Shown here piece after piece: positions 2,466 to 20,368 of a stretch of DNA of 64,000 bases. Numbering within the stretch: position 1 is the first letter of the stretch; every line of letters begins with the position of its first letter. The notes under the pieces were generated by a model. It was not told the origin of the DNA, ran no database searches, and worked only from the letters and a program-made list of their open reading frames with translations. The DNA is taken from assembly GCF_019924045.1 (NCBI RefSeq), contig NZ_JAHXBN010000007.1, forward strand, positions 62,001 to 126,000, in the 5' to 3' direction. The stretch is from Dyadobacter fermentans (GTDB lineage: Bacteria; Bacteroidota; Bacteroidia; Cytophagales; Spirosomataceae). The position numbers and the translations under genes were made by a program.

Positions 2466-5400
2466 ATGCGTTACATTAAAAGCAAAACGATCAAAACACT
2501 GATGATTCTCGCGGGGCTGTGCTTTGCGGTTTCGGCGGTGTATGCGCAAGATCTGGTAGTTTCCGGACAGGTAAAGTCCGGGCAGGACAACCAGCCGTTG
2601 CCCTTTGTGACTGTCGTAGTAAAAGGCAGTCAGCAGGGAGTGAACACGGACGCCGAAGGGAAATACAAGATCAGCGTAGCCAGTGAAAGCATTTTGATCT
2701 TTAGTTTCGTAGGCTATCGTACGCATGAAGAACGGGTCGGAAGCAGGAGCGAGGTGAATGTGACCCTGGAACCCGACCAGAACAACCTGAATGAGGTGGT
2801 AGTAGTGGGTTATGGAAAGCAGGAACGCGAAAATATCACTTCTTCTATCTCCAAGCTCGACAGCAAGGTTCTTGAAAATGTTCCCTTTGCCAATGCGGCT
2901 TCGGCTCTTCAGGGATCTATCGCCGGTCTGCGCGTGCAGAGTACGTCCGGTTTGCCCGGTAACGCACCCCGCATTATCCTGCGGGGAGGGACGTCGATCA
3001 ACAATCCGGACGGCTCGGCGCCGCTCTTCATTATAGATGGTGTGATCCGTTCCAATATGAATGACATCAGCTCGGAGGAAATCGAATCGATGCAGGTGTT
3101 GAAGGATGCTGCTGCAACGGCCATTTATGGCGCCAGGGCCTCTAATGGGGTGGTGATCATCACGACACGCTCGGGAAAGGCCGGCAAGGTGCGGGTCTCG
3201 TATCAGTACGACGCGACGATATCGAGCCTGGCAAAGGGATATGACCTGTTATCCGCGCGTGACTGGCTTTATTTTCAGCGGCTCGGCACGGTGGCTTCGT
3301 CGGTAAAGAACCCCGCCAACCTCAACAAGCTGACATTACCCAACAGCTCCGGCACCGGGAATGATCTGACAAACAACACCGCCTACACAACTCAGTATCT
3401 GACGCCGGCCAACGAGTACAAGCTCAAAGAAGGGTGGGAAAGCATGCCCGATCCGGTCGATCCGAGCAAGACGCTGCTGTTCAAAGGTACCGACTACCAG
3501 GACCTTCTGTTCAGGACGGCGCTATCGCAAAATCACCATGTGTCGGTGAGTGGCGGGACGGAAAAGGCGACTTACAGCGCCGGGCTTGGTTATATGGATG
3601 CCGAGGGGATCGCCATTACCACCAAGTACCGTAGGCTGAACTTTGACCTGAATGGTGATCTGACCGTGAGCAACAAGCTCCGTTTTTATAGCCGGCTGAT
3701 GTTTTCAAGCTCGGGCAACAACCAGGGCATTTCCGACAATGCGCTTTTCGAGCGCTCCATCGGCCTGGCCCCGACGGCCAAATATGCCTACGAAGACGGG
3801 ACCCTGGCCCCCGGCACCGGCCAGAGTATCGGTAACCCGGTGTATCAGCTCAATAAAATCAAAGCCAAGAACAATCGCGATAACCTGACGCTGGCAATCG
3901 GCTCGCATTGGGATATTTTGCCGGGACTCTCTTTCGATCCCCAGCTGTCGCTGTTCAAGTCTACGCTCGAGGCGCGATCTTTCCAGGAAGCATTTTACAA
4001 TGGGCCTGGCTTGTACGTGGATACGCGTAATGCGACCGGTTCTTTTGACAAAACCGAGCAGTATCAGGCGGATGGTGTGCTAACCTATGCCAAAACGTTC
4101 GGCGGCAGACACAATCTGGAGGTGAAGGCCGGGATTTCGTATTTCAATCGGATCAACACCGCATTGAGTGCGACCGGCAGAAAGGCAGCGTCTGATCTGG
4201 TGCCTACCCTGAATGCATCGGCGGAGCCGGTAGCGGTGGGCGGATCGGAGAGCAGCCAGGTTTTGATCGGCTATTTTTCGCGAATCAACTATGATTTCGA
4301 CCAAAAATACCTGGTATCGCTCAGCGCGCGCTACGACGGGGCCTCCAACCTGGGGCGCAATAACCAATGGGGCGTTTTCCCGGGCGTGTCGGTCGGCTGG
4401 AACCTGCATCGGGAGGAATTCTGGAAGGGACTCCCCGAAAATCTGCTGCGCGTGAAATTGCGGGCAAGCTATGGCGTGAACGGTAACATCAGCGGCTTGG
4501 GCGACTTCACCGCCCAGGGGAATTACAGCGTCGGTAATCAGTATTCGACCAACGCCGCTGTGCTCAATACGACCATCTCCAATTCGGATCTGAAATGGGA
4601 GCGTTCGAAGACATTTGATGTAGGGGCCGACGTCGGTTTGTTCGGAAACAGGATCAGTTTGCTATTTGACTATTACCGCAGGGTCACCGACAACCTGCTG
4701 ACCTCGCTGAGCCTTCCTATGTCGACCGGGTTTTCGAGCGTACTCACGAATTTGGGAAGCCTGGAAAACAAAGGCGTGGAGCTTGAATTGAGCGCTCGCG
4801 TGCTTCCGGCCAGCAGCGCCGTCAATTGGAGTGTCTCCTTCAATGCGGCGCAGACCAAGCATAAGATCCTCAGCCTGCCTTATAACGGCATTGAAAACAA
4901 TCGGATCGGCGGGGTGTACGTCTGGAACCCGGCTACGAACGGCTATGCCTGGATGGGCGGCTTGCAAGAGGGCGGCCGGATCGGCGACATGTATACTTAC
5001 AAGCAGCTGAGCATTTATGCTACCGACGAGGAAGCCGCCGCTGGTCCCGTGGACAACCTGGTAACCGGTGCCAACAAGACGAAATATGGCGGGGATGTGA
5101 ACTGGATGGATGCGGATCAGAACAAGGTGATCGACGAAAAGGACAGGGTGTATGTCGGTAATCCCTATCCTGTCTGGACGGGTGGTTTTACCAATTCATT
5201 GGAATACAAAGGGATCAGCCTGTTGCTGCGAATGGATTACACGACCGGTCACACGATTCAGAATTATCCGAGGGCACAGATGATCGGCCAGTTTCAGGGG
5301 GAAATAGGATTGCTTTCGGATGTGAAAAGGTCCTGGCAGAAACCCGGCGACATTACTGACATTCCCAGGTTTTACTGGGCCGATCAGCAGGTGCAGAACA

Positions 5401-5669
5401 ACTTGTACCGTGGTGGTATCGGCGGAGGGAACTCGATGTACTATGAAAAGGGCGATTACCTGGCTGTGCGGGAGCTTACCCTGGCATACAGCATACCCAA
5501 ATCCATCTTAAACAGAGCGAAAATCAACGGTTTGCGGCTTAATGTGACGGCGAATAACCTGCATTACTTCACCGGTTACAAGGGATTGAACCCCGAGGAG
5601 GGGGGAGTCGACCGGGGAAGGTACCCGATACCCCGCTCCATTATCCTGGGCTTGAATATTTCATTGTAA
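2466..5669 (+). CDS. SusC/RagA-family TonB-dependent outer-membrane receptor
   Basis: 1067 residues. A signal peptide ends near residue 28 (AVYAQ), followed by a carboxypeptidase-D-like regulatory domain (about 31-115), then a VVVVGYGKQ lead into the plug (LRGGTSINNP, FIIDGV), then the 22-strand barrel ending in LNISL. SusC proteins form the energised pore of glycan or peptide import complexes with a SusD lid. First gene of the operon, 7 bp before the susD-like gene. The -7 element and candidate operator lie 66-84 bp upstream. Companion genes suggest an acidic, acylated sugar as substrate; the receptor sequence itself does not show what it binds. Confidence 0.96.
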   Translation: MRYIKSKTIKTLMILAGLCFAVSAVYAQDLVVSGQVKSGQDNQPLPFVTVVVKGSQQGVNTDAEGKYKISVASESILIFSFVGYRTHEERVGSRSEVNVTLEPDQNNLNEVVVVGYGKQERENITSSISKLDSKVLENVPFANAASALQGSIAGLRVQSTSGLPGNAPRIILRGGTSINNPDGSAPLFIIDGVIRSNMNDISSEEIESMQVLKDAAATAIYGARASNGVVIITTRSGKAGKVRVSYQYDATISSLAKGYDLLSARDWLYFQRLGTVASSVKNPANLNKLTLPNSSGTGNDLTNNTAYTTQYLTPANEYKLKEGWESMPDPVDPSKTLLFKGTDYQDLLFRTALSQNHHVSVSGGTEKATYSAGLGYMDAEGIAITTKYRRLNFDLNGDLTVSNKLRFYSRLMFSSSGNNQGISDNALFERSIGLAPTAKYAYEDGTLAPGTGQSIGNPVYQLNKIKAKNNRDNLTLAIGSHWDILPGLSFDPQLSLFKSTLEARSFQEAFYNGPGLYVDTRNATGSFDKTEQYQADGVLTYAKTFGGRHNLEVKAGISYFNRINTALSATGRKAASDLVPTLNASAEPVAVGGSESSQVLIGYFSRINYDFDQKYLVSLSARYDGASNLGRNNQWGVFPGVSVGWNLHREEFWKGLPENLLRVKLRASYGVNGNISGLGDFTAQGNYSVGNQYSTNAAVLNTTISNSDLKWERSKTFDVGADVGLFGNRISLLFDYYRRVTDNLLTSLSLPMSTGFSSVLTNLGSLENKGVELELSARVLPASSAVNWSVSFNAAQTKHKILSLPYNGIENNRIGGVYVWNPATNGYAWMGGLQEGGRIGDMYTYKQLSIYATDEEAAAGPVDNLVTGANKTKYGGDVNWMDADQNKVIDEKDRVYVGNPYPVWTGGFTNSLEYKGISLLLRMDYTTGHTIQNYPRAQMIGQFQGEIGLLSDVKRSWQKPGDITDIPRFYWADQQVQNNLYRGGIGGGNSMYYEKGDYLAVRELTLAYSIPKSILNRAKINGLRLNVTANNLHYFTGYKGLNPEEGGVDRGRYPIPRSIILGLNISL

Positions 5670-5676
5670 AACCAAC

Positions 5677-7170
5677 ATGACGACTCAGATGAAGATCAAA
5701 TATAAAATGCTGACCTGCCTGGCATTGTTGTGTGCCGGGGTGAACCAGTCCTGCACCGATAATCTCGATGTCGCGCCTGTGAGCGTGATCACAGAGGCCT
5801 CGTACTGGAAATCGGAAAACGACGCGAATGGCGCATTGAACGGCCTGTATGTTCTTTTGAGAAGACAGGCATCGGAAAACCTGTACCTGTGGGGCGAGGG
5901 CCGCAGCGAGGTGATGGGGCTGGGCGTGCAGGGCTCCGGCGGCCGGGAACGGTATCATGATAACAGCCTGGATGTGACCACAGCGGGACCTAACTGGCTG
6001 GGTATGTATTACATTGTCCATCAGGCCAACCTGATCCTGAAATATGTGCCGCAAATCACCTTTACCTCCGAGGCAACTAAAAACAATATCCTCGCCCAGG
6101 CGTACACCATGCGGGCATTCACGTATTTCACCATGGCCAAAACCTGGGGAGACCTGCCGTTGGTAACGGAACCGACCGAGGGGTACGACCCGGCCTCCAT
6201 CCATAAACCCCGCACGCCGGTGAAGGAGATTTTCTCTTTTATCAAGGAGGATATCGCCAGGGCAGCCCAGCTTTTTGGTGAATCCAATGCCCTGGCGCAG
6301 GGGCGGCAGTTCTGGTCGAAACCTGCTCTGAATGCCCTGAAAGCGGATGTGTTTCTCTGGACTGGCAAAAGGCTTGGTGGCGGCGAGGCCGATTTCAACA
6401 TCGCGCTGGCCGCCATTACCGAGGCGGAGAAAGCGGATGTGAGCCTCCTGCCCAAATTCGAGGATGTTTTCGACTATACCAACAAAGGCAATAAGGAGAT
6501 TCTGATGGCGGTGCGTTTCAAGGATATCGAAGTGACCGACAACCATTACAGCCTGATGTACTTCCCGCAGGCGTTTTTACCGTCCGACTTGGATGCGGCA
6601 ACCAAAGCGGCGATCGGTCTGCCCGCCGGCCAGAACTACTGGGCACCTTCCGCAACGATCCGGAGCCAGTTCACGGCAGACGACAGCCGGAAGAATGCCT
6701 CTTTTATCGAAGTATACACCTCAGCGTCGGGTACACAAAAATTTGTCGGATCGCTGGCGGTGAAGTTCAATGGTTTTGTCAATTCCGGCATTAGGCTGTT
6801 CCTGGATGATGTGATCCTCTATCGGTATGCGGACCTGCTACTGATGAAGGCCGAAGCAAAGAATGCATTGGGGCAGGATCCGGCCGCTGAGATCAACAAG
6901 GTGCGGGAGCGGGCCTACGGCGCAGCGTATAAGCAGCATGTATTTGTAAGCGGCAGCAAGCAAGCCAACGACGAAGCCATTCTTCAGGAGCGTCTTTTCG
7001 AACTCGTTTTCGAAGGAAAAAGATGGTGGGACCTGGTGCGTTTTGGAAAAGCATTTGAAAAAATACCCTCGTTGAAGGACCGTGCCGGTAAGGATTATCT
7101 ACTGCTTTTCCCGATTTCAGAAGCTACATTAAGCCTCGAACCGCAGGTCAAACAAAACCCGGGCTATTGA
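5677..7170 (+). CDS. SusD/RagB-family substrate-binding lipoprotein
   Basis: 497 residues with a lipoprotein signal and lipobox cysteine at residue 26 (GVNQSC). It has a TPR-like SusD fold: early SYWKSENDANGALNGLY, a central AYTMRAFTYFTMAKTWGDLPLV segment, a late ERLFELVFEGKRWWDLVRFG helix and the KQNPGY end typical of the family. It caps the SusC channel on the cell surface and binds the incoming ligand. An in-frame ATG at 5689 gives a more compact signal peptide and may be the real start. Its length and coupling to the upstream SusC gene are normal. Confidence 0.95.
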   Translation: MTTQMKIKYKMLTCLALLCAGVNQSCTDNLDVAPVSVITEASYWKSENDANGALNGLYVLLRRQASENLYLWGEGRSEVMGLGVQGSGGRERYHDNSLDVTTAGPNWLGMYYIVHQANLILKYVPQITFTSEATKNNILAQAYTMRAFTYFTMAKTWGDLPLVTEPTEGYDPASIHKPRTPVKEIFSFIKEDIARAAQLFGESNALAQGRQFWSKPALNALKADVFLWTGKRLGGGEADFNIALAAITEAEKADVSLLPKFEDVFDYTNKGNKEILMAVRFKDIEVTDNHYSLMYFPQAFLPSDLDAATKAAIGLPAGQNYWAPSATIRSQFTADDSRKNASFIEVYTSASGTQKFVGSLAVKFNGFVNSGIRLFLDDVILYRYADLLLMKAEAKNALGQDPAAEINKVRERAYGAAYKQHVFVSGSKQANDEAILQERLFELVFEGKRWWDLVRFGKAFEKIPSLKDRAGKDYLLLFPISEATLSLEPQVKQNPGY

Positions 7171-7201: not shown

Positions 7202-8320
7202 ATGAAACAATTAATTCTTACTGCTTTTATCTTCCTGGCTGTTACATCCGGCATTTGTACACACGCCCAAAAGCCGTCGGGCGGCGAACCGCAGCTTGCA
7301 TTGCAGCTCAATCCCGGCCCGGACAATCCGCGAAACAGTGAAGGGGATTTTATTACACTCAAAAACGGGAACATCCTTTTTATATACAGCCGCTACACGG
7401 GTAGCTCCACCAGCGATCACGCGCCCGCCTACCTGGCCGGAAGACTGTCCCGCGACGGTGGTAAAACATGGACTTCTGCCGACCGATTGATCGTGGAGCG
7501 GGAAGGGGATATGAACGTGATGTCGGTGTCGCTGCTCCGCTTGAAAAATGGGAAGATAGCCCTGTTTTACCTGAAAAAGAATTCGGAGACCGACTGTATT
7601 CCTCAGATGAGGACCTCGGCCGACGAAGGCAAGACGTGGAGCGAGCCGGTGCCGTGTATTACCGATAAAAAAGGGTATTTCGTGCTGAACAACAGCCGGG
7701 TGATCCAGCTGTCGGATGGCCGCCTGATGATGGCTGTTGCGTTACATCGGGCTGTGGACGGCAAATGGCAGAATCAGGCCACGCTGTACAGCTACTATTC
7801 CGACGACCAGGGTGCCAGCTGGAAGTCGTCTTCGGCTATTCCTAACAATTCTCAAATCATCACTCAAGAACCAGGGCTGATCGAATTGAAAGACGGCCGG
7901 ATTATGATGTTCATTCGCGCCAGTGGCGGTGTGCAGCAATTGTCCTATTCGTCGGACAAGGGAGCCAGCTGGTCGCATATCGAGCCGAGCAACATTGCTT
8001 CGCCATTGTCGCCGGCTTCTATCAAGAGAATTCCCGGCACGTCGGATCTGCTGCTGGTATGGAACAACAACGACGGCAGCCAGCCCCAAACGAAAGATAA
8101 GCGCACGCCATTGACGGTAGCCATATCCAAAGACGATGGTAAAACCTGGATCAACACCCGCAACATAGAAACCGACCCGGATGGCTGGTACTGTTACATT
8201 GCGATCCATTTTACCAAAAAAGACGTGCTGCTGGGCTATTGTGCCGGAAGCCAGGCGAAAAAGACGCATTTATCGGTGACTAACGTAAAGCGGTTTTCGC
8301 AAAAATGGCTGTACCAATAG
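7202..8320 (+). CDS. Sialidase-like six-bladed propeller protein with five Asp-boxes
   Basis: 372 residues with a signal peptide ending near residue 22 (CTHAQ). Five Asp-boxes (S-x-D-x-G-x-x-W) are visible at residues 83-90, 139-146, 200-207, 250-257 and 309-316, spaced one per blade. The EPGLIELKDGR segment carries a glutamate at the place of the sialidase nucleophile-assisting acid, and several arginines could form the carboxylate-binding triad. It fits the BNR_2 sialidase-like group, found both as true exo-sialidases and as enzymes of unknown specificity. Export to periplasm or surface next to SusCD suggests it releases or trims an acidic sugar. I cannot prove GH33 activity from sequence alone. 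Confidence 0.75.
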   Translation: MKQLILTAFIFLAVTSGICTHAQKPSGGEPQLALQLNPGPDNPRNSEGDFITLKNGNILFIYSRYTGSSTSDHAPAYLAGRLSRDGGKTWTSADRLIVEREGDMNVMSVSLLRLKNGKIALFYLKKNSETDCIPQMRTSADEGKTWSEPVPCITDKKGYFVLNNSRVIQLSDGRLMMAVALHRAVDGKWQNQATLYSYYSDDQGASWKSSSAIPNNSQIITQEPGLIELKDGRIMMFIRASGGVQQLSYSSDKGASWSHIEPSNIASPLSPASIKRIPGTSDLLLVWNNNDGSQPQTKDKRTPLTVAISKDDGKTWINTRNIETDPDGWYCYIAIHFTKKDVLLGYCAGSQAKKTHLSVTNVKRFSQKWLYQ

Positions 8321-8328
8321 GCGGTGAT

Positions 8329-9135
8329 ATGAAAGACGGTGATCACAGCTCACGAAGATTTTTTCTGCTGCGTACGCTGGCAGGCGTGTTCACGGGCTTG
8401 TTGCCCGCATGGGCGACCGCGACCGCATCCGTCGGCAGGAAAGCAGGCTCGGCAGAGGGGGACCTGGAAAAGATTGCGGCTTTGCTGAGCGGCAAAACAC
8501 GTGGGGTTTGGGTTTTTACCGGGGACAGCATTACTCAGGGAGCGAAGCATACCCACGGCCAACGGAGTTATCCCGAAATTTTCGCGGAGCGCCTCCGGTG
8601 GGAACTGGCCCGGGTAGGCGACGTCGTCGTCAACACAGGTATGAGCGGGCACACAACCCGTCACGTTCTGAATGATATGGATTGGCGTGTCGGACAATTC
8701 AGGCCCTGGGTGGTATCGGTCATGCTGGGAACGAATGATTGCGCGCGAAATCAGGTAACCCTGGCGGATTTTGAAGCTAACCTGACCTCGATCGTAGCGC
8801 AAGTCCGTGCGATGAATGCCGTGCCGATCCTGCATACACCCAACCCGATTATCGCGGAAAAGGCCCCTGAGCGAGCGTCGCTTCCAGAGTACGTGGCGGT
8901 TATCAGAAAGGTGGCCGGGCGGGAAAATGCCATTCTGGTGGATCATTATGCTGAGTGGGATTCCGCGATGGCGAGCCGGTCGGCCGAAGCAGTTCGTCGC
9001 GAGCGGCTGAACGATCCGCTGCATCCCAATCAGACCGGGCACCGGCAGCTTGCCCAAGCTCTTTTTAAAAAGCTGAACATTTTTGACCCGGCCCAACCTA
9101 CTTGCGGGGCAGCCTACTATGAAGGAGAACATTGA
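8329..9135 (+). CDS. SGNH/GDSL-family esterase with a Tat-type leader
   Basis: 268 residues from the ATG at 8329, chosen because it follows the previous stop (8320); an in-frame ATG at 8305 would overlap that gene. SGNH blocks are present: GDSITQG (nucleophile Ser67), the NTGMSGHTT glycine block, LGTND, and DPLHP with the catalytic Asp/His. The leader contains SSRRFFLL followed by a hydrophobic stretch, a good twin-arginine motif, so export may be by Tat. Family members remove acetyl or other acyl groups from sugars. Beside a sialidase-like protein and a NanM-like mutarotase it may play the role of a sialate O-acetylesterase (inference). The 3' end overlaps the next gene by 17 bp. Confidence 0.8.
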   Translation: MKDGDHSSRRFFLLRTLAGVFTGLLPAWATATASVGRKAGSAEGDLEKIAALLSGKTRGVWVFTGDSITQGAKHTHGQRSYPEIFAERLRWELARVGDVVVNTGMSGHTTRHVLNDMDWRVGQFRPWVVSVMLGTNDCARNQVTLADFEANLTSIVAQVRAMNAVPILHTPNPIIAEKAPERASLPEYVAVIRKVAGRENAILVDHYAEWDSAMASRSAEAVRRERLNDPLHPNQTGHRQLAQALFKKLNIFDPAQPTCGAAYYEGEH

Positions 9136-10051
9136 AAACAAATTGACCACCGTCATCGCAGCGAAGCGGCAAGGCCCTTCCGTGCTGATTTCCGCCGGTG
9201 TGCATGGCGACGAATATGAGCCCATGGTTGCGGCAGCCGAGCTTGCGGCAGTCTTACCGGGGATGCTGGCGCACGGTCAGGTCACGGTGGTCACGGTCGT
9301 AAATCCCGATGCCTACGGGCACGGGACCCGGCAGGGGAGCGACGGGCTGGACCTCGCACGGATTTGCCCTGGGAACGATAGTGGATCGGTTTCCGAAGCC
9401 TATGCCGCCCGGATCAGTTCGATGATAGAACAGGTTGATTATTACGTGGATATGCATACCGGCGGGTTGACCTACGAAATCCACCCATTGGCAGGGTATA
9501 TGCTTCATCCCGACGAAGGCATCCTGGACATACAGCGGCAAATGGCCCGGTGTTTCGATGTGCCGGTGATCTGGGGTACCGATTACCGGCCGCAGGGGCG
9601 GACTTTATCGGTCGCAAGAGACGCACAGGTTCCCGCTGTTTACCTCGAATTCGGCGGCGGGACCGGATTTCGCCGCCAAGTGGTCGATACTTATGTGACC
9701 GGGGTGATCAACCTGCTCAGGTTTTTGGGGATGATTGAAGGGAAAGGGAGTCGATCGCCCGAACCCTATTGGCTGGAAGATCACCGTCCCGACAGCGGCT
9801 ATCTCCAGGGCAAAATGCCTTCGCCTGCCGAAGGTATCCTGATAGCCGGGGTTGCATTGGGGGAGACAGTCAGTGCTGGCCAGTATTTCGGACGCATTTT
9901 TGATCCGGTGTCAGGCATCAGCCATTCGGTTTCGGCAGACGTCGCTGGAATTGTCTTTCTCAAAAGGGCTATCGCGAAAGTGAAATCCGGCGACGCACTA
10001 GGGGGCATTCTGCCCATTACGCAAAAAGGAAAACATACGATTTATGAATAG
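9119..10051 (+). CDS. Succinylglutamate desuccinylase/aspartoacylase family deacylase (M14-like zinc amidase)
   Basis: 310 residues from the ATG at 9119; an upstream in-frame ATG at 9083 lies well inside the esterase gene. The zinc site is clear: HGDE (His29, Glu32) and DMHTGG (His113). YLEFGGG supplies the catalytic glutamate (Glu177). A beta domain follows, with biotinyl-like segments such as GVALGETVSAGQ. Relatives hydrolyse N-acyl amides of amino acids (aspartoacylase, AstE, and the ectoine-pathway EutE/DoeB deacetylase). No signal peptide, so it is cytoplasmic. In this operon it probably removes an acyl group from nitrogen once the substrate is inside the cell. Confidence 0.85.
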   Translation: MKENIENKLTTVIAAKRQGPSVLISAGVHGDEYEPMVAAAELAAVLPGMLAHGQVTVVTVVNPDAYGHGTRQGSDGLDLARICPGNDSGSVSEAYAARISSMIEQVDYYVDMHTGGLTYEIHPLAGYMLHPDEGILDIQRQMARCFDVPVIWGTDYRPQGRTLSVARDAQVPAVYLEFGGGTGFRRQVVDTYVTGVINLLRFLGMIEGKGSRSPEPYWLEDHRPDSGYLQGKMPSPAEGILIAGVALGETVSAGQYFGRIFDPVSGISHSVSADVAGIVFLKRAIAKVKSGDALGGILPITQKGKHTIYE

Positions 10052-10859
10052 GGATCAGGTGGTATTGATTACCGGGGCTACCGGGGGCATTGGACGCGCC
10101 ACAGCCCGGACATTTGCCTCGGCGGGCTGCAAGCTGGTGTTAACCGACACAGATCCATCGGCATTATCTGCACTGGAAGAGGAGTTGAAAGCAGACCATT
10201 GTCAGCCGATAATCTCCTTGCCGGGCGATTTGAGCGAGACCGGTTTTTGGGATGAACTCATCGCTAATGCTTTTGCAAAATGGGGAACTGTCGATGTCCT
10301 GGTTAACAATGCGGCCTGGCGGACGATCGAAACCATGCGGACAATCCCGGTTGAAACATGGGAGAAAACCCTGCGCATTTGCCTGACCGCGCCGGCGTTC
10401 CTCTCGCAAGCGGTAGCAAAGCGAATGGAAGCATTGCGACGACCGGCTGTGATTGTGAACGTGTCGAGTATGATGGCCGACCGGCCTGCCGGCACGTCCC
10501 CGGCCTACATTGCCTCCAAGGGCGCACTCAATAGCCTCACTGCCGAACTGGCTGTCACCTATGGGCGTAGCGGGATCAGGGTGGTAGGCGTGAGCCCGGG
10601 TTACGTGGATACCGCATTGAGCCGCGATTACCAGGATGCCGACGGAAATAATGTTAGTGCACGGCTGATCGACGCGGTAAGTGACAACGTACCGCTTGGA
10701 AGAGGGGCAAGCCCGGAGGAAATAGCTGCGGCAATATGCTGGCTGACCTCGGAAGGAGCCTCATACATTACCGGGACGACATTGGTTATTGACGGCGGTT
10801 TTAAGCCCAATTTCAGCGGGTATAGTGTTAAAAGAAATCAATTCCCCGATCAATTTTGA
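10044..10859 (+). CDS. SDR family oxidoreductase
   Basis: 271 residues. TGATGGIGRAT cofactor loop near residue 10, NNAAW, catalytic NVSSMM serine, YIASKG tyrosine/lysine and a C-terminal TLVIDGG. The start overlaps the previous stop by 8 bp and its own stop overlaps the next TTG start by 4 bp, so it is translated within the operon. It is one of three dehydrogenase-type enzymes here (with 18634-19569 and 19577-20368). Likely oxidises a sugar or sugar-acid hydroxyl; substrate unknown. Confidence 0.88.
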   Translation: MNRDQVVLITGATGGIGRATARTFASAGCKLVLTDTDPSALSALEEELKADHCQPIISLPGDLSETGFWDELIANAFAKWGTVDVLVNNAAWRTIETMRTIPVETWEKTLRICLTAPAFLSQAVAKRMEALRRPAVIVNVSSMMADRPAGTSPAYIASKGALNSLTAELAVTYGRSGIRVVGVSPGYVDTALSRDYQDADGNNVSARLIDAVSDNVPLGRGASPEEIAAAICWLTSEGASYITGTTLVIDGGFKPNFSGYSVKRNQFPDQF

Positions 10860-12893: not shown

Positions 12894-14159
12894 ATGAAGA
12901 TCGCAAAACCCTTTCCGGAAGACAAGCCAGCTTTGTATGCCTGGCTGGTGGTTGTTATGCTTTGTCTGGTAGGCTGTCTCAACTACCTGGACAGGATGAT
13001 GATCACCACCATGCGCAGCTCGATTGTGGCAGCGATCCCGATGTCCGAGACGCAGTTCGGGCTGCTTACCTCTGTTTTCCTGTGGGTGTATGGGCTGCTC
13101 AGCCCGGTTGCGGGATTTCTGGCCGATCGGTTCAGTCGCAGCAAAGTGATCATCATCAGTCTGCTCGTATGGTCGCTCGTAACCTGGCTTACCTCGCAGG
13201 CGGTCACCTTCGAGCAACTGCTGGCGACCAGGGCATTGATGGGTATCAGCGAGGCATGTTACATTCCTGCCGCGCTGGCGCTGATCATGGATTATCACCC
13301 GGAAAAGACGAAATCGCTGGCCACGGGTATCCACATGGGTGGTGTGATGTTCGGGCAGAGCCTGGGCTTTATCGGTGGATGGCTTGCCGAAAACCATTCC
13401 TGGAATTTCGCATTCAAGGTTTTCGGAGGTTTCGGCATCGTTTACGCAGTGCTGCTGGCCCTCGCGTTGCGTGATCCCCGGATGGTAACTCAGCAATCAG
13501 GGAAGGACGTAAATAGGCCCGCGGGTTTTGCGGGCGCGATCGGCAGGCTGCTCGGGACGCCGTCCTACCTGTTTGCGATTCTGTACTGGGGATTAATCAG
13601 CATTGTTGGCTGGTTGGTGGTGGCATGGCTGCCGACCTATTTTAAGGAGCATTTTACCTTGTCGCAGAGTATGGCCGGGGTGTATTCGACCGGGTATTTC
13701 CATACCGCATCGCTGGCGGGCGTATTGCTGGGCGGCTTTCTGGCCGACCGGTGGAGTAGGCATAACCCCCGCGCGCGGGTGCTTGTACCCCTGTATGGTT
13801 TGCTGATCGGAGCGCCCGCGATCTTTCTGGCCAGCAATACTGCGGTACTCTCGGTGGCAGTCGGCTGTTTCATGTTGTATGCGCTCACACGCACTTTCAC
13901 GGATGCGAACATGATGCCCATTCTGAGCATGATCGTCGATGCGCGCTACCGGGCCACGGCATATGGCATTCTCAATATGTTCAGCTGCATTGTCGGCGGG
14001 CTGGGAATCTATGCGGGAGGGATGCTCCGGGATGCCGATGTACCGCTTTCAGCCATGTTCAAGGTTGCGGCAGGTTTGATGCTGGTCTGCGTGGTGGTTT
14101 TAAGATATATCAGGACGGAGCCTGTTGAGAATCAGGTATTAAATCAAATAGAAAAATGA
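12894..14159 (+). CDS. Major facilitator superfamily transporter
   Basis: 421 residues with 12 predicted membrane spans in two halves. The loop 2-3 signature GFLADRFSRSKV and its repeat GFLADRWSRHNP in the second half are clear. The group resembles anion:cation symporters that carry organic acids, sugar acids or sialic acid. It is the only inner-membrane permease in the operon and is presumably the uptake route for the monomer released in the periplasm. It overlaps the RraA-like gene by 4 bp (ATGA). Confidence 0.9.
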   Translation: MKIAKPFPEDKPALYAWLVVVMLCLVGCLNYLDRMMITTMRSSIVAAIPMSETQFGLLTSVFLWVYGLLSPVAGFLADRFSRSKVIIISLLVWSLVTWLTSQAVTFEQLLATRALMGISEACYIPAALALIMDYHPEKTKSLATGIHMGGVMFGQSLGFIGGWLAENHSWNFAFKVFGGFGIVYAVLLALALRDPRMVTQQSGKDVNRPAGFAGAIGRLLGTPSYLFAILYWGLISIVGWLVVAWLPTYFKEHFTLSQSMAGVYSTGYFHTASLAGVLLGGFLADRWSRHNPRARVLVPLYGLLIGAPAIFLASNTAVLSVAVGCFMLYALTRTFTDANMMPILSMIVDARYRATAYGILNMFSCIVGGLGIYAGGMLRDADVPLSAMFKVAAGLMLVCVVVLRYIRTEPVENQVLNQIEK

Positions 14160-14800
14160 ATATTGAAGAGCTAAAAGACAAATTGTATGTGGCCGTGCTT
14201 GCTGACGTGCTCGATCAGCTGGGGTTAACCCAACAGGCTACCCGAACGCCTTTTTTTGCTTACACCGGTACCAATAAATTGATGGGCCGCTGCAAGACTA
14301 CGCTTTGGGCGGATATGTACCATCAGGATCCCAACCCTTATGAGCTCGAATTGAAAGCGGTCGATTCATGCCAGCCCGGAGATGTGCTGATCTGCGCGGC
14401 GGGCGGCTCCAACCGGTCGGGTATCTGGGGCGAGCTGCTTTCTACCGCGGCACGCAATGCCGGCTGCGTGGGCGTAGTGGTGCATGGTTCGGTGCGTGAT
14501 ATTGATAAAATGACTGCCATGGAATTTCCAGTATTTGCAACCGGTAAAAACCCCTATGACAGCCAGAACCGCCAAAAGGTGGTCGACCTGGATGTGGTCG
14601 TGGAAATCGACGGGGTGAAATTTGTGCCCGGTGACCTTGTTATGGCCGACCAGGATGGGATTGTGGTAGTACCGCAGCAGGTGGAAGCACAGGTACTAGC
14701 AGCGGCGCTCGAAAAAGTTTCCGCAGAGAATGTCACGCGCGATGCGATCAGGAGCGGAATGAAGGCCATGGAGGCATATCAGAAATTTGGTGTACTATGA
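14156..14800 (+). CDS. RraA / HMG-CHA aldolase family protein
   Basis: 214 residues. The substrate-pocket motif is intact: GGSNRSGIWGELLS followed by HGSVRDID with Arg114-Asp115, the residues that hold the metal-bound oxaloacetate-type ligand in HMG/CHA aldolases. GDLVMADQDGIVVVP is the family's C-terminal signature. The name RraA comes from RNase E inhibition, but proteins in catabolic operons are usually class II pyruvate aldolases or oxaloacetate decarboxylases. A second C-C lyase next to the NAL-type aldolase is a notable feature of this pathway. Coupled by 4-bp overlaps on both sides. Confidence 0.85.
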   Translation: MNIEELKDKLYVAVLADVLDQLGLTQQATRTPFFAYTGTNKLMGRCKTTLWADMYHQDPNPYELELKAVDSCQPGDVLICAAGGSNRSGIWGELLSTAARNAGCVGVVVHGSVRDIDKMTAMEFPVFATGKNPYDSQNRQKVVDLDVVVEIDGVKFVPGDLVMADQDGIVVVPQQVEAQVLAAALEKVSAENVTRDAIRSGMKAMEAYQKFGVL

Positions 14801-15177
14801 GAACAAAACAGGTTGTTACCGGGCCAGTCCCGCAGAGTCATTTGCCTTTTTCGCCGGGGATTGTCTCGGGGGAATACCTATTTGTGTCCGGACAGGCAAG
14901 TGTCGACGATCAAGGCCAGATCGTCAACGACACCTTTGAGGGCGAATGCCGCCGTTCGTTTGATAATTTGAAAAGGATTGTCGAGGCCGCCGGGGCAACG
15001 CTGGACGACGCCGTGCAGGTCAGAAATTACGTTGGTCACCAGCAGAATCTGGCCAGTTTCAATGCCATTTACCGGGAATACTTCCGGGAGCCGTTTCCTG
15101 CACGCACTACGCTGATAGGCTGTTTGGGGGATTTGCTCAAATTCGAAGTCGACGCCGTCATTTATCTAGGTAAGTAA
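14797..15177 (+). CDS. ridA: RidA family enamine/imine deaminase
   Basis: 126 residues, the normal length for the trimeric RidA/YjgF/UK114 fold. Arg103 in PARTTLIG matches the active-site arginine that holds the carboxylate of 2-aminoacrylate-type enamines. LVSGQ and the final KFEVDAVIYL strand are typical. It speeds hydrolysis of reactive enamines or imines made by PLP-dependent eliminases. That fits the threonine-synthase-like gene four genes upstream and suggests that step releases an unstable nitrogen intermediate. An operon-specific copy may instead have a dedicated deaminase role. Confidence 0.88.
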   Translation: MRTKQVVTGPVPQSHLPFSPGIVSGEYLFVSGQASVDDQGQIVNDTFEGECRRSFDNLKRIVEAAGATLDDAVQVRNYVGHQQNLASFNAIYREYFREPFPARTTLIGCLGDLLKFEVDAVIYLGK

Positions 15178-15184: not shown

Positions 15185-16699
15185 ATGACTGAATCAGAGC
15201 CGCAGAGACCCAATTGTCGACAAACGCCCCAACGGGTTGGATTACTAGGAATTTACCATGAAACCAACACATTCATCGAATCCGCAACGACGCTCGCTGA
15301 TTTTCAGAATGGATATTGGCTGGAAACGAGCCGGATCAGAGACGAATATCAGGGAGCCAACCATGAAATCAGCGGATTGATCGAGGTGATAGACGGGGCT
15401 CCGGATATGGAACTGGTGCCGATATTTTACGCCATGGCTACGCCCGGAGGACTGATCACGAGGGATTGCTACCTGGCATTGCTGGATCGTATGATGCAGC
15501 TTCTGGACGAGGCGGGGCCATTGGATGCCTGCCTCGTCGCGCCGCATGGTGCTGGTGTGGCCGAGGGGTACCCGGATATGGACGGGCATTGGTTGTCGCT
15601 CCTGAGACAGAAACTGGGAGTTGGGGTGCCGATCATCGGTACACTGGACCCGCACGCCAATGTCAGCCAGGCGATGATTGATGCAACCGATGGCCTGATC
15701 GCCTATGCCACCAATCCGCACATTGATCAGAAGCAGACCGGTATAGAGGCTGCCCGCCTGCTGGTGAATACTTTGCGTGGTGAGGTTTCTCCCGTGCAGC
15801 TGCTGGTCAAGCCGCCCGTGGCCATCAGTATCGAGCAGCAGTTTACTTCAAATCAGCCTTGCCTTGGGCTTTATGCGCTTGCGCAGGAGCTGGAACAGCG
15901 TTTCGCCCTGGTTTCGATGAGCGTATTGCTGGGTTTTCCCTATGCGGATGTACATGAAATGGGGTCGGGGTTCATCGTGATCGCGGATCGCAATCAGTCG
16001 CCGGCTGCGATAAGCCAGGCAGAGGAAGCGGCATCTATACTTTCAGCCTTTTTAATGGAGCACAAGCAGGCATTCAACGGAAAAAAGTCGGGTGTACAGG
16101 CCGTATTGAGAGATTTTGAAAATCACCCGGAACCGGTATTGCTGCTGGATATGGGCGACAACATCGGAGGCGGGGCGCCGGGCGACAGTACGTTGATCCT
16201 CGAACATCTTGAAACAGGCGGATTTTCGGACTTCTTTATTTGCTTGTACGATCCGGAAAGTGTGGCGCAATGCGGAGAAGCAAAGGTCGGTGCGGATGTC
16301 TCCCTTTTCCTGGGAGGAAAGAGGGGCTTGAAAACCCGCGTTGAAGTCCTCGCATTGTACGACGGTCACTTTACGGAGGATGCTCCGCGGCATGGCGGAT
16401 TTGTCCATTACGATATGGGCCCTACGGCGGTGGTCCGCACGATGGGCGGGAACACGGTTATGCTCACAAGCAGGCGCACGCCACCGTACAGCCTTCGGCA
16501 GCTAACCGCTTTGGGTCTCGATCCGCATAGCTTCCGGGGGATTATTGCCAAGGGGGTCAATGCGCCTATTGCGGCATATGGTGACGTTTGTCCATCGATT
16601 GTTCAGGTCGATACACCCGGGGTGACCCAGGCCGATATGACCCTTTTTGAGTACAAAAACCGAAGGGCGCCCCTGTTTCCTTTTGAAGAATCTGTCTGA
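15185..16699 (+). CDS. M81 family metallopeptidase (MlrC-like)
   Basis: 504 residues with both MlrC domains: the N-terminal part with YHETNTF, DPHANVS and TNPHID segments that carry the metal ligands, and the C-terminal part opening with DMGDNIGGGAPGDST. No signal peptide, so cytoplasmic. MlrC is known from microcystin breakdown, where it cleaves a linear tetrapeptide, but most relatives occur in amino-acid or amide catabolic clusters with unknown substrates. Here it may hydrolyse an amide or cyclic amide bond of the imported compound. It lies 7 bp after ridA and 5 bp before the SMP-30 gene. Confidence 0.85.
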   Translation: MTESEPQRPNCRQTPQRVGLLGIYHETNTFIESATTLADFQNGYWLETSRIRDEYQGANHEISGLIEVIDGAPDMELVPIFYAMATPGGLITRDCYLALLDRMMQLLDEAGPLDACLVAPHGAGVAEGYPDMDGHWLSLLRQKLGVGVPIIGTLDPHANVSQAMIDATDGLIAYATNPHIDQKQTGIEAARLLVNTLRGEVSPVQLLVKPPVAISIEQQFTSNQPCLGLYALAQELEQRFALVSMSVLLGFPYADVHEMGSGFIVIADRNQSPAAISQAEEAASILSAFLMEHKQAFNGKKSGVQAVLRDFENHPEPVLLLDMGDNIGGGAPGDSTLILEHLETGGFSDFFICLYDPESVAQCGEAKVGADVSLFLGGKRGLKTRVEVLALYDGHFTEDAPRHGGFVHYDMGPTAVVRTMGGNTVMLTSRRTPPYSLRQLTALGLDPHSFRGIIAKGVNAPIAAYGDVCPSIVQVDTPGVTQADMTLFEYKNRRAPLFPFEESV

Positions 16700-16704
16700 C
16701 AGTT

Positions 16705-17535
16705 ATGAACCTGCAAAGCATTACCGTAAAACTACTGGATCTGCCCTTCTATACGGAGGGGCCCTGTGTGGACGACGTGGGGAATTTATTCTTTACGACT
16801 TTGAGCGGCGGTCAGCTCATGCGGACACGGCCTGGTGAAGTCCCGGTGAGATGGGCCGAAGCCGGCTGCCCGAACGGCCAGGTTATTACGAGCGAGGGCA
16901 CCCACCTGGTGTGCGACAGTGCAGAGAGGGCCATCGTGCAATTCGATCGCGCAGGCATCCGTACGGGAGAGCTGGTTAATGGGCAATGCGCAGGATATGC
17001 CGTGCATTGCCCGAACGACCTGATCGAAGACCGCGAGGGTAATGTATATTTTACCGATTCGGTACGCGAAAAGGGAAGGGTTTTCAAAGTGAGAAAAGAC
17101 GGGTCGCAACAATGCATTGCCGACAACCTGGATTATCCGAATGGACTTGCCCTGTCGCCGAACCACGCGTTGCTCTATGTTGCAGAAAGTTATCAGAACA
17201 GGATACTGGCCATTTCGCTGGGCGAGGAGCCGGTTCCGCCGGTCTTCGTTTGGGCTACGTTGCCGGGGCATCGCTCAGGCAGGCCGGTCGATAATCTGCC
17301 CGACGGGCTGGCAACCGATGCGCAGGGGCGTGTGTGGGTAGCCCATTATGGCATGCAGGCTGTTCAGGTATTTTCGGCTGAGGGGGCGTTGCTGGCTAGT
17401 TTGGACACTGCATTACCGCTTACCAGTAACCTATGTTTTGTCTCCGACCAGCCGCATCGGAAATCGGTTTTGATTACCGGCGGGTATGCGGAGCCCGGGC
17501 CGGGAGCGGTGTTGCTGATGACCGTCGACATGTGA
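16705..17535 (+). CDS. SMP-30/gluconolactonase family lactonase
   Basis: 276 residues, a six-bladed propeller. Metal-binding residues can be placed: Glu in YTEGP near residue 18, Asn in NDLIED (about 102), Asn in PNGLALS and Asp in DGLATD. It probably hydrolyses a sugar lactone made by one of the operon's dehydrogenases, giving the open aldonic-type acid. No signal peptide. It starts 5 bp after the M81 gene and ends one base before the mutarotase gene. Together with the SDRs it points to an oxidative entry into metabolism. Confidence 0.87.
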   Translation: MNLQSITVKLLDLPFYTEGPCVDDVGNLFFTTLSGGQLMRTRPGEVPVRWAEAGCPNGQVITSEGTHLVCDSAERAIVQFDRAGIRTGELVNGQCAGYAVHCPNDLIEDREGNVYFTDSVREKGRVFKVRKDGSQQCIADNLDYPNGLALSPNHALLYVAESYQNRILAISLGEEPVPPVFVWATLPGHRSGRPVDNLPDGLATDAQGRVWVAHYGMQAVQVFSAEGALLASLDTALPLTSNLCFVSDQPHRKSVLITGGYAEPGPGAVLLMTVDM

Positions 17536-17536
17536 T

Positions 17537-18604
17537 ATGAAAGCGTCTATGAAATATTTTCCAATTATAGTGATGATGATGGTAGTTGAAGCGGCTGTTG
17601 GTCAAACCGCATTGAAATGGAATGCATTGCCCGATTTGCCAGACGACCGAGGGTTTGCGGGCATGTTTGCGGGTGTAAGCCATGGCGCGTTGCTCTGCCT
17701 GGGCGGCGCGAATTTTCCCGACGGTTATCCCTGGGATGGCGGCGTCAAGAAATGGTATGACGGGATTTACTTGCTCGAACAAGGCGGTAGCTGGAAAAAG
17801 CTGCCACAGAAAATGGAAACCGCTGCCGGTTATGGCGTTTCGGTTTCCTATCAGGACCAAGTAATTCTGGTTGGCGGCAGTAATGCCAGAGAGCATTTGA
17901 GCCGGGTGATTGGCTACGAATGGGACGGCCAGGCGCTTGTCCGGCATAAATATCCTTCGCTGCCCTTTTCCCTGGCCAATATGTCAGGCGCCGTACTCGA
18001 AGACCTTCTGATTGTGGTCGGGGGGAATGTTTCGGCCACCGGTCCGGGGCTAGCTAAATGCCTGGTGCTGGATTTGAAGGATGTCCAAACCGGTTGGACT
18101 GAAATGGAACCCTGGCCTGGTCCGGGGCGTATCTTTCCGGTTTGCGCGACATTCGAGGGAGCTTTTTATATGTTCAGCGGTGAATCTACGGCGGTTAACT
18201 CCAAAGGAACCTCGTACAGGTTGATTCATCAGGACGGTTACCGGCTGAGCATCCAGTATTTGGCCGGACGGAGGAGCGTGCATTGGGAAAAGCTTGCAGC
18301 GATGCCAAGGGGTATGTCCGCTGGTGGTTCTTCGCTACCGGTGTTAAAGGGCGACCGGTTCTTGTTCTGGGGTGGGGTCGATGCCGTGACCGCCCAGCAT
18401 AAGACGCCTTCCTCGCACCCGGGGATTACCAACGATCTGTTGTACTACTTTCCCCACACCGATTCGTGGGAGTTTGTGGGCCGGCAGCAGCGTATTCCGG
18501 CCCGCGTGACGCTACCGGTAGTACATTGGCAAAATCAATGGTTTTACATTAGCGGGGAGATCAAACCCGGCATCAGAACGCCTGCTATTACGGGGGTTTA
18601 TTGA
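17537..18604 (+). CDS. Cyclically permuted mutarotase (NanM-like kelch protein)
   Basis: 355 residues with a signal peptide (cleavage near AVGQ, residue 23). Kelch-type blades are present, with the family hallmark GGANFPDGYPWDGG then KKWYDGIY, plus VGGSN and FWGGVD repeats. NanM of E. coli speeds conversion of alpha- to beta-N-acetylneuraminate in the periplasm, and this subfamily keeps that hallmark. It is the strongest sequence argument that the operon handles a sialic-acid-like sugar released by a retaining sialidase-type enzyme. It overlaps the TTG-initiated form of the next ORF by 4 bp. Confidence 0.87.
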   Translation: MKASMKYFPIIVMMMVVEAAVGQTALKWNALPDLPDDRGFAGMFAGVSHGALLCLGGANFPDGYPWDGGVKKWYDGIYLLEQGGSWKKLPQKMETAAGYGVSVSYQDQVILVGGSNAREHLSRVIGYEWDGQALVRHKYPSLPFSLANMSGAVLEDLLIVVGGNVSATGPGLAKCLVLDLKDVQTGWTEMEPWPGPGRIFPVCATFEGAFYMFSGESTAVNSKGTSYRLIHQDGYRLSIQYLAGRRSVHWEKLAAMPRGMSAGGSSLPVLKGDRFLFWGGVDAVTAQHKTPSSHPGITNDLLYYFPHTDSWEFVGRQQRIPARVTLPVVHWQNQWFYISGEIKPGIRTPAITGVY

Positions 18605-18633
18605 ATTTTATTGACTTTTGGCAGGGCAGATCC

Positions 18634-19569
18634 ATGAAAACCATCACATTTAAAGGATACCGTTTTTCCCAGCTCACATTGGGGACCGTTCAGTTGGGTA
18701 TGCCTTACGGGATATCCAATTTACAAGGCATGCCCGGCGACCGGGAAGCGCTTGACATGCTGCGCATGGCGGCGGGTGCAGGGATTACCACTTTCGATAC
18801 CGCCCGGCAGTATGGGGCTTCCGAGGCGCTCCTGGGTCGCTTTTTAGCAGACTATAAGGGAAAAAACCTGAATATGGTTTCCAAGTTTAAGATTGGCCCG
18901 CAGGGTGCCGTTTCATTGGAGCGGGCCTGGAAATCAGTAGAAACCAGTGTCAGAGCCTCTATCGAATGCCTGGGAGTCAGTAAACTGCCTGTATGCCTGC
19001 TGCACAAGGGAGAAGAGCCCATGGAAGCAGTGGCGGGCGTCCTGCCGGAGATCATTTCGCGGCTTAGGGAGCAGGAGTTGATCGATGTTGGCGGGGTGTC
19101 CGTGTATGAGCCGGCAGATGTTGCTTTTTGCCTGTCTGAGTCTCTTATTGAAGCGGTGCAGGTACCGGTCAACATTTTCGATCAGCGGCTGGTCGTTTCG
19201 GGCGCGTTGCAGCGCCTTGCACAGGCGCGAAAGCTGGTTTTTGCCCGCAGTGTGTTCCTGCAAGGATTGTTTTTCATGGATCCCGGTCAAATCAGTGGTA
19301 ATCTTAAACCAGCCATACCGTTTTTAAGGCAGCTTCATGCATTCGCCAGCGAATATCATCTTGATGTAGCGGGCATGGCGTTTTCTTACGTCAGGGACCT
19401 TCCAGGGATCGATAGTATCGTCGTGGGGGCAGTTACTTCGGCACAGCTGGCAGAGAATGTGAGGTTGCTCGACGCTCCGGAGATTCCAATGGCCCTTCGG
19501 GATGAATTTATCAAAGTATTTACAGCTGTCCCCGACGAAATTCTTACGCCGGGAAGATGGAAAGTTTAA
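18634..19569 (+). CDS. Aldo/keto reductase
   Basis: 311 residues from the ATG at 18634, preferred over an in-frame TTG at 18601 because the family core starts just after it (FSQLTLGTVQLGMPYG). A TIM-barrel AKR with FDTARQYG (catalytic Asp and Tyr), KFKIG lysine and a late SIVVGAVTSAQL cofactor loop. The GTVQLGMPYGISN opening recalls AKRs found in polysaccharide and nonulosonic-acid gene sets. Probably NAD(P)-dependent oxidation or reduction of a sugar aldehyde/keto group. It lies 29 bp after the mutarotase and 7 bp before the last SDR. Confidence 0.85.
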   Translation: MKTITFKGYRFSQLTLGTVQLGMPYGISNLQGMPGDREALDMLRMAAGAGITTFDTARQYGASEALLGRFLADYKGKNLNMVSKFKIGPQGAVSLERAWKSVETSVRASIECLGVSKLPVCLLHKGEEPMEAVAGVLPEIISRLREQELIDVGGVSVYEPADVAFCLSESLIEAVQVPVNIFDQRLVVSGALQRLAQARKLVFARSVFLQGLFFMDPGQISGNLKPAIPFLRQLHAFASEYHLDVAGMAFSYVRDLPGIDSIVVGAVTSAQLAENVRLLDAPEIPMALRDEFIKVFTAVPDEILTPGRWKV

Positions 19570-19576
19570 TCAGACG

Positions 19577-20368
19577 ATGAACCAGTTATTTAGTTTGACC
19601 GGCAAAGTGGCGATCGTAACGGGCGGAGCCGGTTTTTTTGGTACACCTATATCTACGGCCCTCGCGGAGGCGGGAGCTCGTGTAGTTATCGCCTCACGCA
19701 ATGTCAGCACAGGGGAGCTTTTAGCGGCCGGGTTGTCGTCCCGGGGCTTTCTTGCCACGGCCATGTTCCTGGACCTGGAAAATGAGGCTTCAATCCGGGC
19801 GCTTGTTGAAACTGTGACGGCCATGTTCGGCCGCATCGATATTCTCGTCAATAATGCTGTTTCGAGGCAGGGTTTTCAAAACCTGGAAGAAATAGAAATT
19901 GAAGGCTGGGAAGCTGCCCAGCGCGTTAATGCCACCGGACTTGTGCTGATGACGCGGGCGGTTATCGAACCTATGAAGGCCGCCGGCAAGGGAAGTATTA
20001 TTAATATCGGGTCGATCCAGGGCGCAGTAGGGCCGCATTTCCCTGTTTACGGACAGACCGGGATGACGAGTCCGGTCAACTATACCTACGACAAATGGGG
20101 TATGGTGGGCTTTACCAAATGGTTGGCCAATTTTTACGGTCGATACAACATCCGCGCCAATTGCATTAGTCCGGGGGGATACGGGCCCGGCGTTGCACAG
20201 CTGGAAGGCAAGGAGGAATTCATTGAAAACTATAAAAGGCTTACTCCGTTAGGACGGTTCGCCGATGATGCGGATATCAAAGGGCCCGTAGTATTTATGG
20301 CCTCGGATGCATCGGCATTCATAACCGGGCACAACCTGCTGGTCGATGGCGGCTGGACGAGCTGGTAG
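19577..20368 (+). CDS. SDR family oxidoreductase (PtmA-like)
   Basis: 263 residues from the ATG at 19577 (MNQLFSLTG); an in-frame ATG at 19502 lies inside the AKR gene and is unlikely. TGGAGFFGTPIS loop, NNAVSRQ, INIGSIQG serine, YTYDKWG (Tyr and Lys) and LLVDGGWTSW end. The GGAGF loop, insertion before the tyrosine and GGWT end resemble SDRs such as PtmA from nonulosonic-acid modification loci. Last gene of the operon. It may oxidise a hydroxyl of the sugar or of the aldolase product. Confidence 0.87.
   Translation: MNQLFSLTGKVAIVTGGAGFFGTPISTALAEAGARVVIASRNVSTGELLAAGLSSRGFLATAMFLDLENEASIRALVETVTAMFGRIDILVNNAVSRQGFQNLEEIEIEGWEAAQRVNATGLVLMTRAVIEPMKAAGKGSIINIGSIQGAVGPHFPVYGQTGMTSPVNYTYDKWGMVGFTKWLANFYGRYNIRANCISPGGYGPGVAQLEGKEEFIENYKRLTPLGRFADDADIKGPVVFMASDASAFITGHNLLVDGGWTSW

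Follow-up and report, generated by a model that had tools for sequence, protein, structure and literature searches.

How could a bacterium consume the amino-sugar half of a sialic-acid-type sugar with an operon that appears equipped to release and cleave such a sugar and encodes no kinase? This question is raised by a 16-gene operon of Dyadobacter fermentans, which lies in the stretch of 64,000 nucleotides analyzed here (the window; positions 62,001 to 126,000 of contig NZ_JAHXBN010000007.1, from the 8.0 Mb draft assembly GCF_019924045.1, with 173 contigs and 99.99% completeness). We propose, with moderate confidence, that its genes make up an oxidative route that needs no kinase for consuming an N-acyl-neuraminate-type sialic acid. 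Substrates, reactions and compartments in this proposal are deduced from the sequence, starting from what could be observed directly: the gene set, its order and conservation, the catalytic motifs and a predicted sialidase fold.

The open reading frame (ORF) list of the window contains all 16 genes on the forward strand between positions 2466 and 20368, in the order given by the original prediction, and the tight array described there could be confirmed. With the likely ATG starts of astE (9119) and sdr2 (19577), adjacent genes overlap or are no more than 7 bp apart at 13 of the 15 junctions; the two wider ones are susD–bnr (31 bp) and nal–mfs (54 bp). Families were assigned by Pfam and NCBIfam profile searches (for the two short-chain dehydrogenases (SDRs), the PALP enzyme and the major facilitator superfamily (MFS) protein, from the best 25 NCBIfam matches each) and agreed with those first described. 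None of these lists for the 16 operon genes contained a kinase, NanE, NagA or NagB family, and a phosphorylative route hidden inside the operon was therefore ruled out.

To characterize the conservation of the operon, we collected loci around relatives of PALP (the best 80 of 574 confirmed, among which near relatives are over-represented). According to record titles, 36 of these loci belonged to Bacteroidota and 44 to other phyla. Eight Bacteroidota loci shorter than 20.9 kb were set aside, leaving 28 of full length. In tblastn searches (identity of at least 40%, or 35% for nanM, bnr and gntR; query cover of at least 40%), astE, sdr1, ridA and smp30 were each found in all 28, and together with palp, which was the selection criterion, they co-occurred in 28 out of 28. 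They were accompanied by m81 (27), nal (26), nanM (25), bnr (22), mfs (18), rraA (15), sgnh (14), sdr2 (13), akr (12), susD (11), susC (10) and gntR (9). The corresponding numbers for all 36 Bacteroidota loci were 36 for sdr1, 34 each for astE and ridA, 33 each for smp30, m81 and nal, and 29 for nanM. Across the 36 loci there were 35 neighboring pairs of sdr1 and palp, 33 of astE and sdr1, and 13 of akr and sdr2 (pairs were counted without an identity limit). Genera carrying the block include Larkinella, Runella, Spirosoma, Niabella, Parapedobacter, Pedobacter, Cyclobacterium and Membranihabitans, and PALP homologs at 90% identity came from Dyadobacter. The PALP family itself was rare, occurring in two of 395 sampled genomes of the phylum, our own included (E 1e-60). 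As controls, we used six non-randomly chosen stretches of the same genome, that is, window positions 21401–64000 and five loci, three of which had been selected on account of a DHDPS gene and a fourth on account of an epimerase gene. None of the six contained astE, palp, m81, ridA, smp30 or nanM; NAL-family matches at 22–26% identity, SusC/SusD matches at 23–31% and one SDR match at 28% were found. Chance grouping of unrelated genes was ruled out by the recurrence of the block in the 28 full-length loci. Thus, in Bacteroidota the core forms a genuine functional unit, of which the AstE/PALP deacylase-lyase pair has the widest distribution. A breakup into unrelated conserved pairs, which would have spoken against the original prediction, was looked for in these loci, and the block was instead kept as a unit; this holds for Bacteroidota but not for other phyla, in which mainly the AstE/PALP/SDR part persists.

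In the scheme that we propose, a GH33-like exo-sialidase of the BNR/sialidase family (bnr, 7202–8320, + strand, as are all genes of the operon) and an SGNH esterase that is a possible sialate O-acylesterase (8305–9135; Lipase_GDSL_2, 104 bits) would free and de-O-acylate a sialic-acid-type sugar outside the cell and in the periplasm. A twin-arginine signal could be read by eye in the esterase sequence. A SusC-type TonB-dependent outer-membrane transporter (2466–5669; TIGR04056, 795 bits, cut-off 368) and a NanU-like SusD-type lipoprotein (5677–7170) would bind and import the sugar, a NanM-like cyclically permuted mutarotase (17537–18604) would set its anomer, and an MFS permease (12894–14159), the proposed inner-membrane importer, would move it into the cytoplasm. 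The N-acetylneuraminate-lyase-type aldolase (NAL; DHDPS/NAL family, 11940–12839) would then convert the sialic acid to pyruvate and an N-acyl-mannosamine, an aldose of the N-acetylmannosamine (ManNAc) type. SDR1 (10044–10859; SDR family), a proposed N-acyl-mannosamine 1-dehydrogenase, would oxidize C1 of this aldose to a lactone, which the putative lactonase of the SMP-30/gluconolactonase family (16705–17535; 107.9 bits) would open to N-acyl-mannosaminate. The acyl group would be removed by an AstE/DoeB-like zinc amidohydrolase of the AstE_AspA_cat family, the proposed N-acyl-mannosaminate deacylase (9119–10051; the longest ORF begins at TTG 9083, and ATG 9119 is the likelier start). PALP (10856–11947), a fold-type II pyridoxal phosphate (PLP) enzyme of a threonine-synthase-like family and proposed mannosaminate ammonia-lyase, and the RidA enamine/imine deaminase (14797–15177; assigned by family models, R103 conserved) would complete the sequence: mannosaminate would lose water and ammonia, and hydrolysis of the enamine would give 2-keto-3-deoxygluconate (KDG). 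Finally, an aldolase, for which the RraA-like protein (14156–14800; family models) is a candidate here and an HpcH/HpaI-type protein in some relatives, may cleave KDG to pyruvate and glyceraldehyde; the latter would be oxidized to glycerate and then phosphorylated.

The last steps are suggested by relatives of the operon. In one Bacteroidota locus (L073) a glycerate kinase gene forms part of the row of cluster genes, in a second (L041, where a 2-hydroxyacid dehydrogenase is encoded too) such a gene adjoins the cluster, and a third (L085) has a relative. These three of 36 loci point to a C3 exit product; a split of KDG into pyruvate and glyceraldehyde, followed by glycerate formation, weakly fits these neighbors. 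HpcH/HpaI aldolase relatives occurred in nine loci, and RraA-like proteins include pyruvate aldolases according to the family models listed. Two pyruvate-type cleavages, as originally predicted, are plausible, with the second aldolase being a candidate only. In addition, the genome has two 2-keto-3-deoxy-6-phosphogluconate (KDPG) aldolases, which could also drain KDG, provided that a KDG kinase exists. On the whole, the predicted route by oxidation and lactone opening in place of phosphorylation is supported inside the operon, whose gene families suit the oxidation of a sugar, the opening of a lactone and the elimination of ammonia at the points where kinase steps would be, but less so at the genome level, since the genome has alternative routes.

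The identity of several enzymes could be examined more closely. The GH33-like protein has a predicted six-bladed propeller with the Arg triad, Asp, Glu and Tyr of sialidases, and its exo-sialidase activity is predicted from this fold. In NAL, the Schiff-base Lys, the Tyr and a G-x-D-E motif, whose roles we assign by presumed equivalence to E. coli NanA, were kept in 34 of the 35 aligned sequences that reach the motif. SDR1 and SMP-30 belong to families that fit an aldose 1-dehydrogenase and lactonase pair, their substrates being assigned by family. Three genes have no firm step in the proposed pathway, namely those for a KidO-like aldo-keto reductase (AKR, 18601–19569, with ATG 18634 the likelier start), a gluconate-5-dehydrogenase-like protein (SDR2, 19577–20368; longest ORF from 19502) and an M81/MlrC-type zinc amidase (15185–16699), all assigned by family models; the first two recur as neighbors. 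In M81, four metal-site residues (E26, D155, H157 and H179) were kept in at least 95% of 33 sequences, and they match the zinc ligands of MlrC in order and spacing, as these are given in PMC9982164. Among solved structures related to M81, only 7ylq and 3iuu qualified, and they gave no clue to the substrate.

Stereochemistry fits a ManNAc-derived substrate. The acid derived from N-acetylglucosamine has a 2R (D-like) center and that derived from ManNAc a 2S (L-like) center, and both the AstE/DoeB and the threonine-synthase-like fold-type II families act mostly on L-amino acids. The types of AstE and PALP would thus match the unepimerized NAL product, because L-type families suit the 2S acid; this is an argument by analogy from family habits, to which exceptions are known. 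A useful comparison is the ong cluster of Pseudoalteromonas, in which, according to its description, N-acetylglucosaminic acid (GlcNAc1A) is deacetylated, the resulting GlcN1A is deaminated to KDG, and a RidA protein of unknown role is needed for growth (PMC9537276). In both systems an aldonate without a phosphate group appears to be de-N-acetylated and then deaminated to KDG by a PLP enzyme, and both have a RidA gene in the cluster and TonB-dependent receptors; in particular, RidA stands with deacetylase-type and PLP deaminase-type genes in the operon, as described for ong. However, the deacetylase OngB belongs to the D-aminoacylase family, and OngC, the deaminase, is a fold-type III enzyme active on D-serine and D-threonine, in contrast to the AstE_AspA_cat and fold-type II (PALP) proteins of the operon. 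In the same account, the ong acid arises by lytic polysaccharide monooxygenase oxidation of chitin and a KDG kinase follows, both being ong features, whereas sialidase, NAL, NanM, SDR and lactonase are features of the operon that the part consulted does not name for ong (PMC9537276). The D-type enzymes of ong fit a 2R substrate, and by the same logic the L-type families of the operon would indicate the 2S, ManNAc-derived acid.

In other respects the scheme resembles the oxidative, non-phosphorylative pathways of the Weimberg and Dahms type, which consist of an aldose dehydrogenase, an SMP-30-type lactonase, a 2-keto-3-deoxy acid intermediate and aldol cleavage. Unlike in these, deacylation and the loss of ammonia would take the place of water removal, as an N-acyl amino sugar requires. 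An N-acyl-D-mannosamine 1-dehydrogenase of Flavobacterium sp. 141-8 is reported to be an SDR that converts ManNAc to the lactone, the very reaction proposed for SDR1. This activity is also cited as an SDR example in PMC12133307. The B. fragilis-type nan pathway comprises NanL, NanE-II and RokA (PMC10017367); it shares with the operon a neuraminate lyase and SusCD-type uptake, and a similar locus exists elsewhere in the D. fermentans genome, whereas the operon has oxidative enzymes instead of an epimerase and a kinase. With the E. coli NanA/NanK/NanE system, as outlined in the same source (PMC10017367), the operon shares the neuraminate lyase and a GntR-family regulator whose best model is NanR (below cut-off), but it has neither kinase nor epimerase, and its MFS protein scores far below the cut-off of the sialate:H+ symporter model (41 bits versus 553). 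No description of an oxidative sialate pathway was found among the papers listed by searches of an open-licence library.

The operon is probably under local control. A GntR/FCD regulator, a probable repressor (1568–2278, − strand; GntR 61.9 bits, FCD 48.1 bits), is divergent from the operon; its score on the NanR model was 72.3 bits, far below the cut-off of 260. Between this gene and susC lies the palindrome ATTTGT-AGG-ACAAAT (2385–2399), a probable GntR operator. It overlaps TACATTTG (2382–2389), which we take to be a match to the Bacteroidota −7 element TAnnTTTG, and because of this overlap the GntR protein likely represses the operon by occluding its promoter, as far as the sequence indicates. 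An identical palindrome was present in five of 12 upstream regions examined, those of the window, L028, L029, L035 and L038; L028 and L029 are nearly identical to the window throughout, whereas L035 and L038 have diverged around the palindrome. The exact pattern had a single site in the whole 8.0 Mb genome, at the operon, and a backwards control pattern had two. Uniqueness is therefore weak evidence for the operator, and it is conservation rather than rarity that argues for it. Co-regulation with other sialate loci, gauged by the exact pattern only, was not apparent, as the pattern occurred nowhere else in the genome (inexact sites were not searched); it was also absent from the 25 bases looked at upstream of susC in the nan-like locus on contig C106 described below.

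Several results weigh against the proposed pathway. First, NAL (176 bits, cut-off 281), SusD (NanU model, 337 bits, cut-off 425) and NanM (TIGR03548, 143.8 bits, cut-off 243) score below their NCBIfam cut-offs, while NAL and NanM pass those of Pfam (118.9 bits on NANM, cut-off 45). No named ManNAc dehydrogenase could be found among 120 listed of the 7309 homologs of the SDR1 ortholog from L043, most of which are unnamed, and the attempt to name SDR1 in this way failed. M81 was present in 27 of the 28 full-length Bacteroidota loci yet has no place in a scheme for N-acetylneuraminic acid (Neu5Ac), and rraA was missing from 13 of them. Some fold-type II enzymes, DsdA for example, use D-amino acids as substrates. 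Second, the module appears incomplete outside Bacteroidota. In the 44 Verrucomicrobiota and Planctomycetota loci, ORFs picked by script were searched with hidden Markov models; PALP itself was recovered in 36, so that all counts are lower bounds. AstE-type proteins were found in 30, SDR1-type in 26, M81 in 15, sialidase-like in nine, NanM in eight and RidA in five, SMP-30 was not detected in these ORFs, and NAL-family matches were only distant (nine loci, 42–60 bits). In favor of the scheme, AstE and PALP occur together in at least 30 of these loci, which would be expected if one enzyme feeds the other.

Third, the genome is not devoid of other sialate and amino-sugar enzymes, which rules out a simple reading of the operon as its only such equipment. 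The original claim that NanE, NanK, NagA, NagB and kinases are absent stands for the operon, but epimerase and NagB-type enzymes do occur in the genome, which has four AGE-type epimerases, six ROK proteins, of which one is interrupted by an in-frame stop, and a NagB over cut-off (at L110). The best PF01182 match was rejected as a NagB, since its sequence and a zwf-like neighbor suggest 6-phosphogluconolactonase. Classical NanE (PF04131) gave no match in the genome, with eight of 14 controls positive. Three further loci deserve mention. A B. fragilis-like nan locus (L019, C106:86000–105500) encodes SusCD, a NAL, a NanM-sodium symporter fusion, a SASA esterase, a sialidase-like protein and an AGE epimerase (368 bits versus a cut-off of 600). 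A third nan-like locus (L024, C103:64000–78263) has sialidase-like, NAL and NanM-symporter fusion genes and a GntR protein 52% identical to the operon regulator. A SusCD-type locus (L020, C65:103000–122000) carries an AGE epimerase over cut-off (690 bits) and a ROK protein. Another ManNAc route is thus likely to exist in the same genome, and a second one for plain Neu5Ac looks redundant. Similarly, when 25 genomes with the module were searched with the AGE epimerase model, 12 had matches over cut-off and nine at 362–377 bits; the remainder comprised one at 489 bits with a broken frame, two Runella at 242–246 bits and Dyadobacter endophyticus at 105 bits. PF04131 matched in 11 of these genomes at E 0.001, three flagged over cut-off (25.7–28.1 bits); the three lie inside frames of about 500 aa and were judged to be unrelated proteins. 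The two routes may coexist and serve different sialic acids, and the presence of other nan-like genes suggests a different substrate or condition for the operon.

Such a difference is the starting point of a reading in which the same oxidative logic serves another nonulosonic acid, for example a legionaminic-type sugar with two N-acyl groups from bacterial glycans. It was raised because M81 lacks a role in the Neu5Ac scheme and a second N-acyl group offers one way out. NAL would yield a 2,4-diacylamino hexose, AstE would remove the 2-N-acyl group and M81 the second, and class-III aminotransferases of some clusters would take off the second amine. It would explain why nearly all full-length clusters of Bacteroidota contain two zinc amidases whose metal-site residues are conserved, and class-III aminotransferase relatives do occur in 12 of the 80 loci, six of them in Bacteroidota (two Pfam-confirmed; that of L054 at 30% identity only). 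However, no such aminotransferase is present in the Dyadobacter operon, the glycerate kinase of the three loci points to a glyceraldehyde-type product, and NAL keeps the Asp-Glu pair that presumably meets the glycerol tail in E. coli NanA. Pseudaminate would give a 2R (D-type) center and fits the enzyme families less well. On balance, this alternative seems a minor possibility. Planctomycete modules that contain AstE, SDR1, PALP and M81 (L086, L090, L098 and L106) carry class-III aminotransferase relatives; M24 peptidase, acetamidase-like, PIG-L and DUF4432 genes lie near the module of L090.

It might also be argued that the sialidase, esterase, NAL and NanM merely scavenge Neu5Ac for an epimerase route elsewhere, while SDR, lactonase, AstE, PALP, RidA and M81 act on an unrelated N-acyl hydroxy-amino acid. 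The epimerases, NagB and nan-like locus of the genome would allow this, and the presence of AstE and PALP in the 44 loci of other phyla, where close NAL or SMP-30 relatives are lacking, indicates that the pair is separable from sialate genes. Against it, genes of both halves alternate within a single block that many Bacteroidota genera have kept, the exact operator occurs only at the operon, and D. endophyticus has the operon together with no PF04131 match and the poor epimerase score given above. Moreover, Opitutae loci (L060 and L066, in part L065 and L069) again unite AstE and PALP with NanM, an MFS protein (about 55% identity) and a sialidase-like gene. We regard this division of labor as improbable. 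That the operon serves some other acylated amino-sugar acid or uronate, its sialidase-like protein being a non-sialate glycosidase or lyase, is in our opinion very improbable given the sialidase-type residues of that protein, even though sialate-specific NCBIfam models scored below curated cut-offs and the MFS protein best fits a sugar-acid transporter (D-galactonate, 128 bits, cut-off 395).

Apart from the operon, three other features of the window were observed: a type I secretion-like set of ABC exporter, HlyD-family protein and outer-membrane efflux protein (21395–25816); a 683-aa protein (29848–31896) that has a Por secretion tail and otherwise consists largely of repeats of DUF285, a family that owes its name to Mycoplasma (503.6 bits); and, on the − strand, a second SusCD-like locus (50202–62616), which also encodes a hybrid two-component regulator and an FG-GAP/ASPIC-UnbV protein.

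If the oxidative route for an N-acyl-neuraminate-type sialic acid is confirmed, oxidizing the amino-sugar half instead of phosphorylating it would be a new way to use sialic-acid-type sugars, one that needs neither epimerase nor kinase and whose end products are glyceraldehyde, ammonia, an acyl acid and two pyruvates. ManNAc dehydrogenase activity would gain a pathway, and functions could be assigned both to a clade of AstE-like proteins and to a family of fold-type II PLP enzymes that are often named threonine synthase; sialate use would become predictable in genomes lacking NanE and NanK. As a more speculative and rather unlikely extension, the cluster might represent a complete and hitherto undescribed nonulosonate pathway that lacks early kinase steps, in which the NAL product is oxidized, delactonized, de-N-acylated by the AstE-type enzyme and deaminated by the fold-type II enzyme while M81 takes a second N-acyl group, and by which not only sialic acid but also di-N-acyl nonulosonic acids of bacteria are recycled by environmental Bacteroidota and, in part, by Verrucomicrobiota and Planctomycetota. 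The main reading, if correct, would likewise open a way to study the recycling of bacterial nonulosonic acids by environmental microbes.

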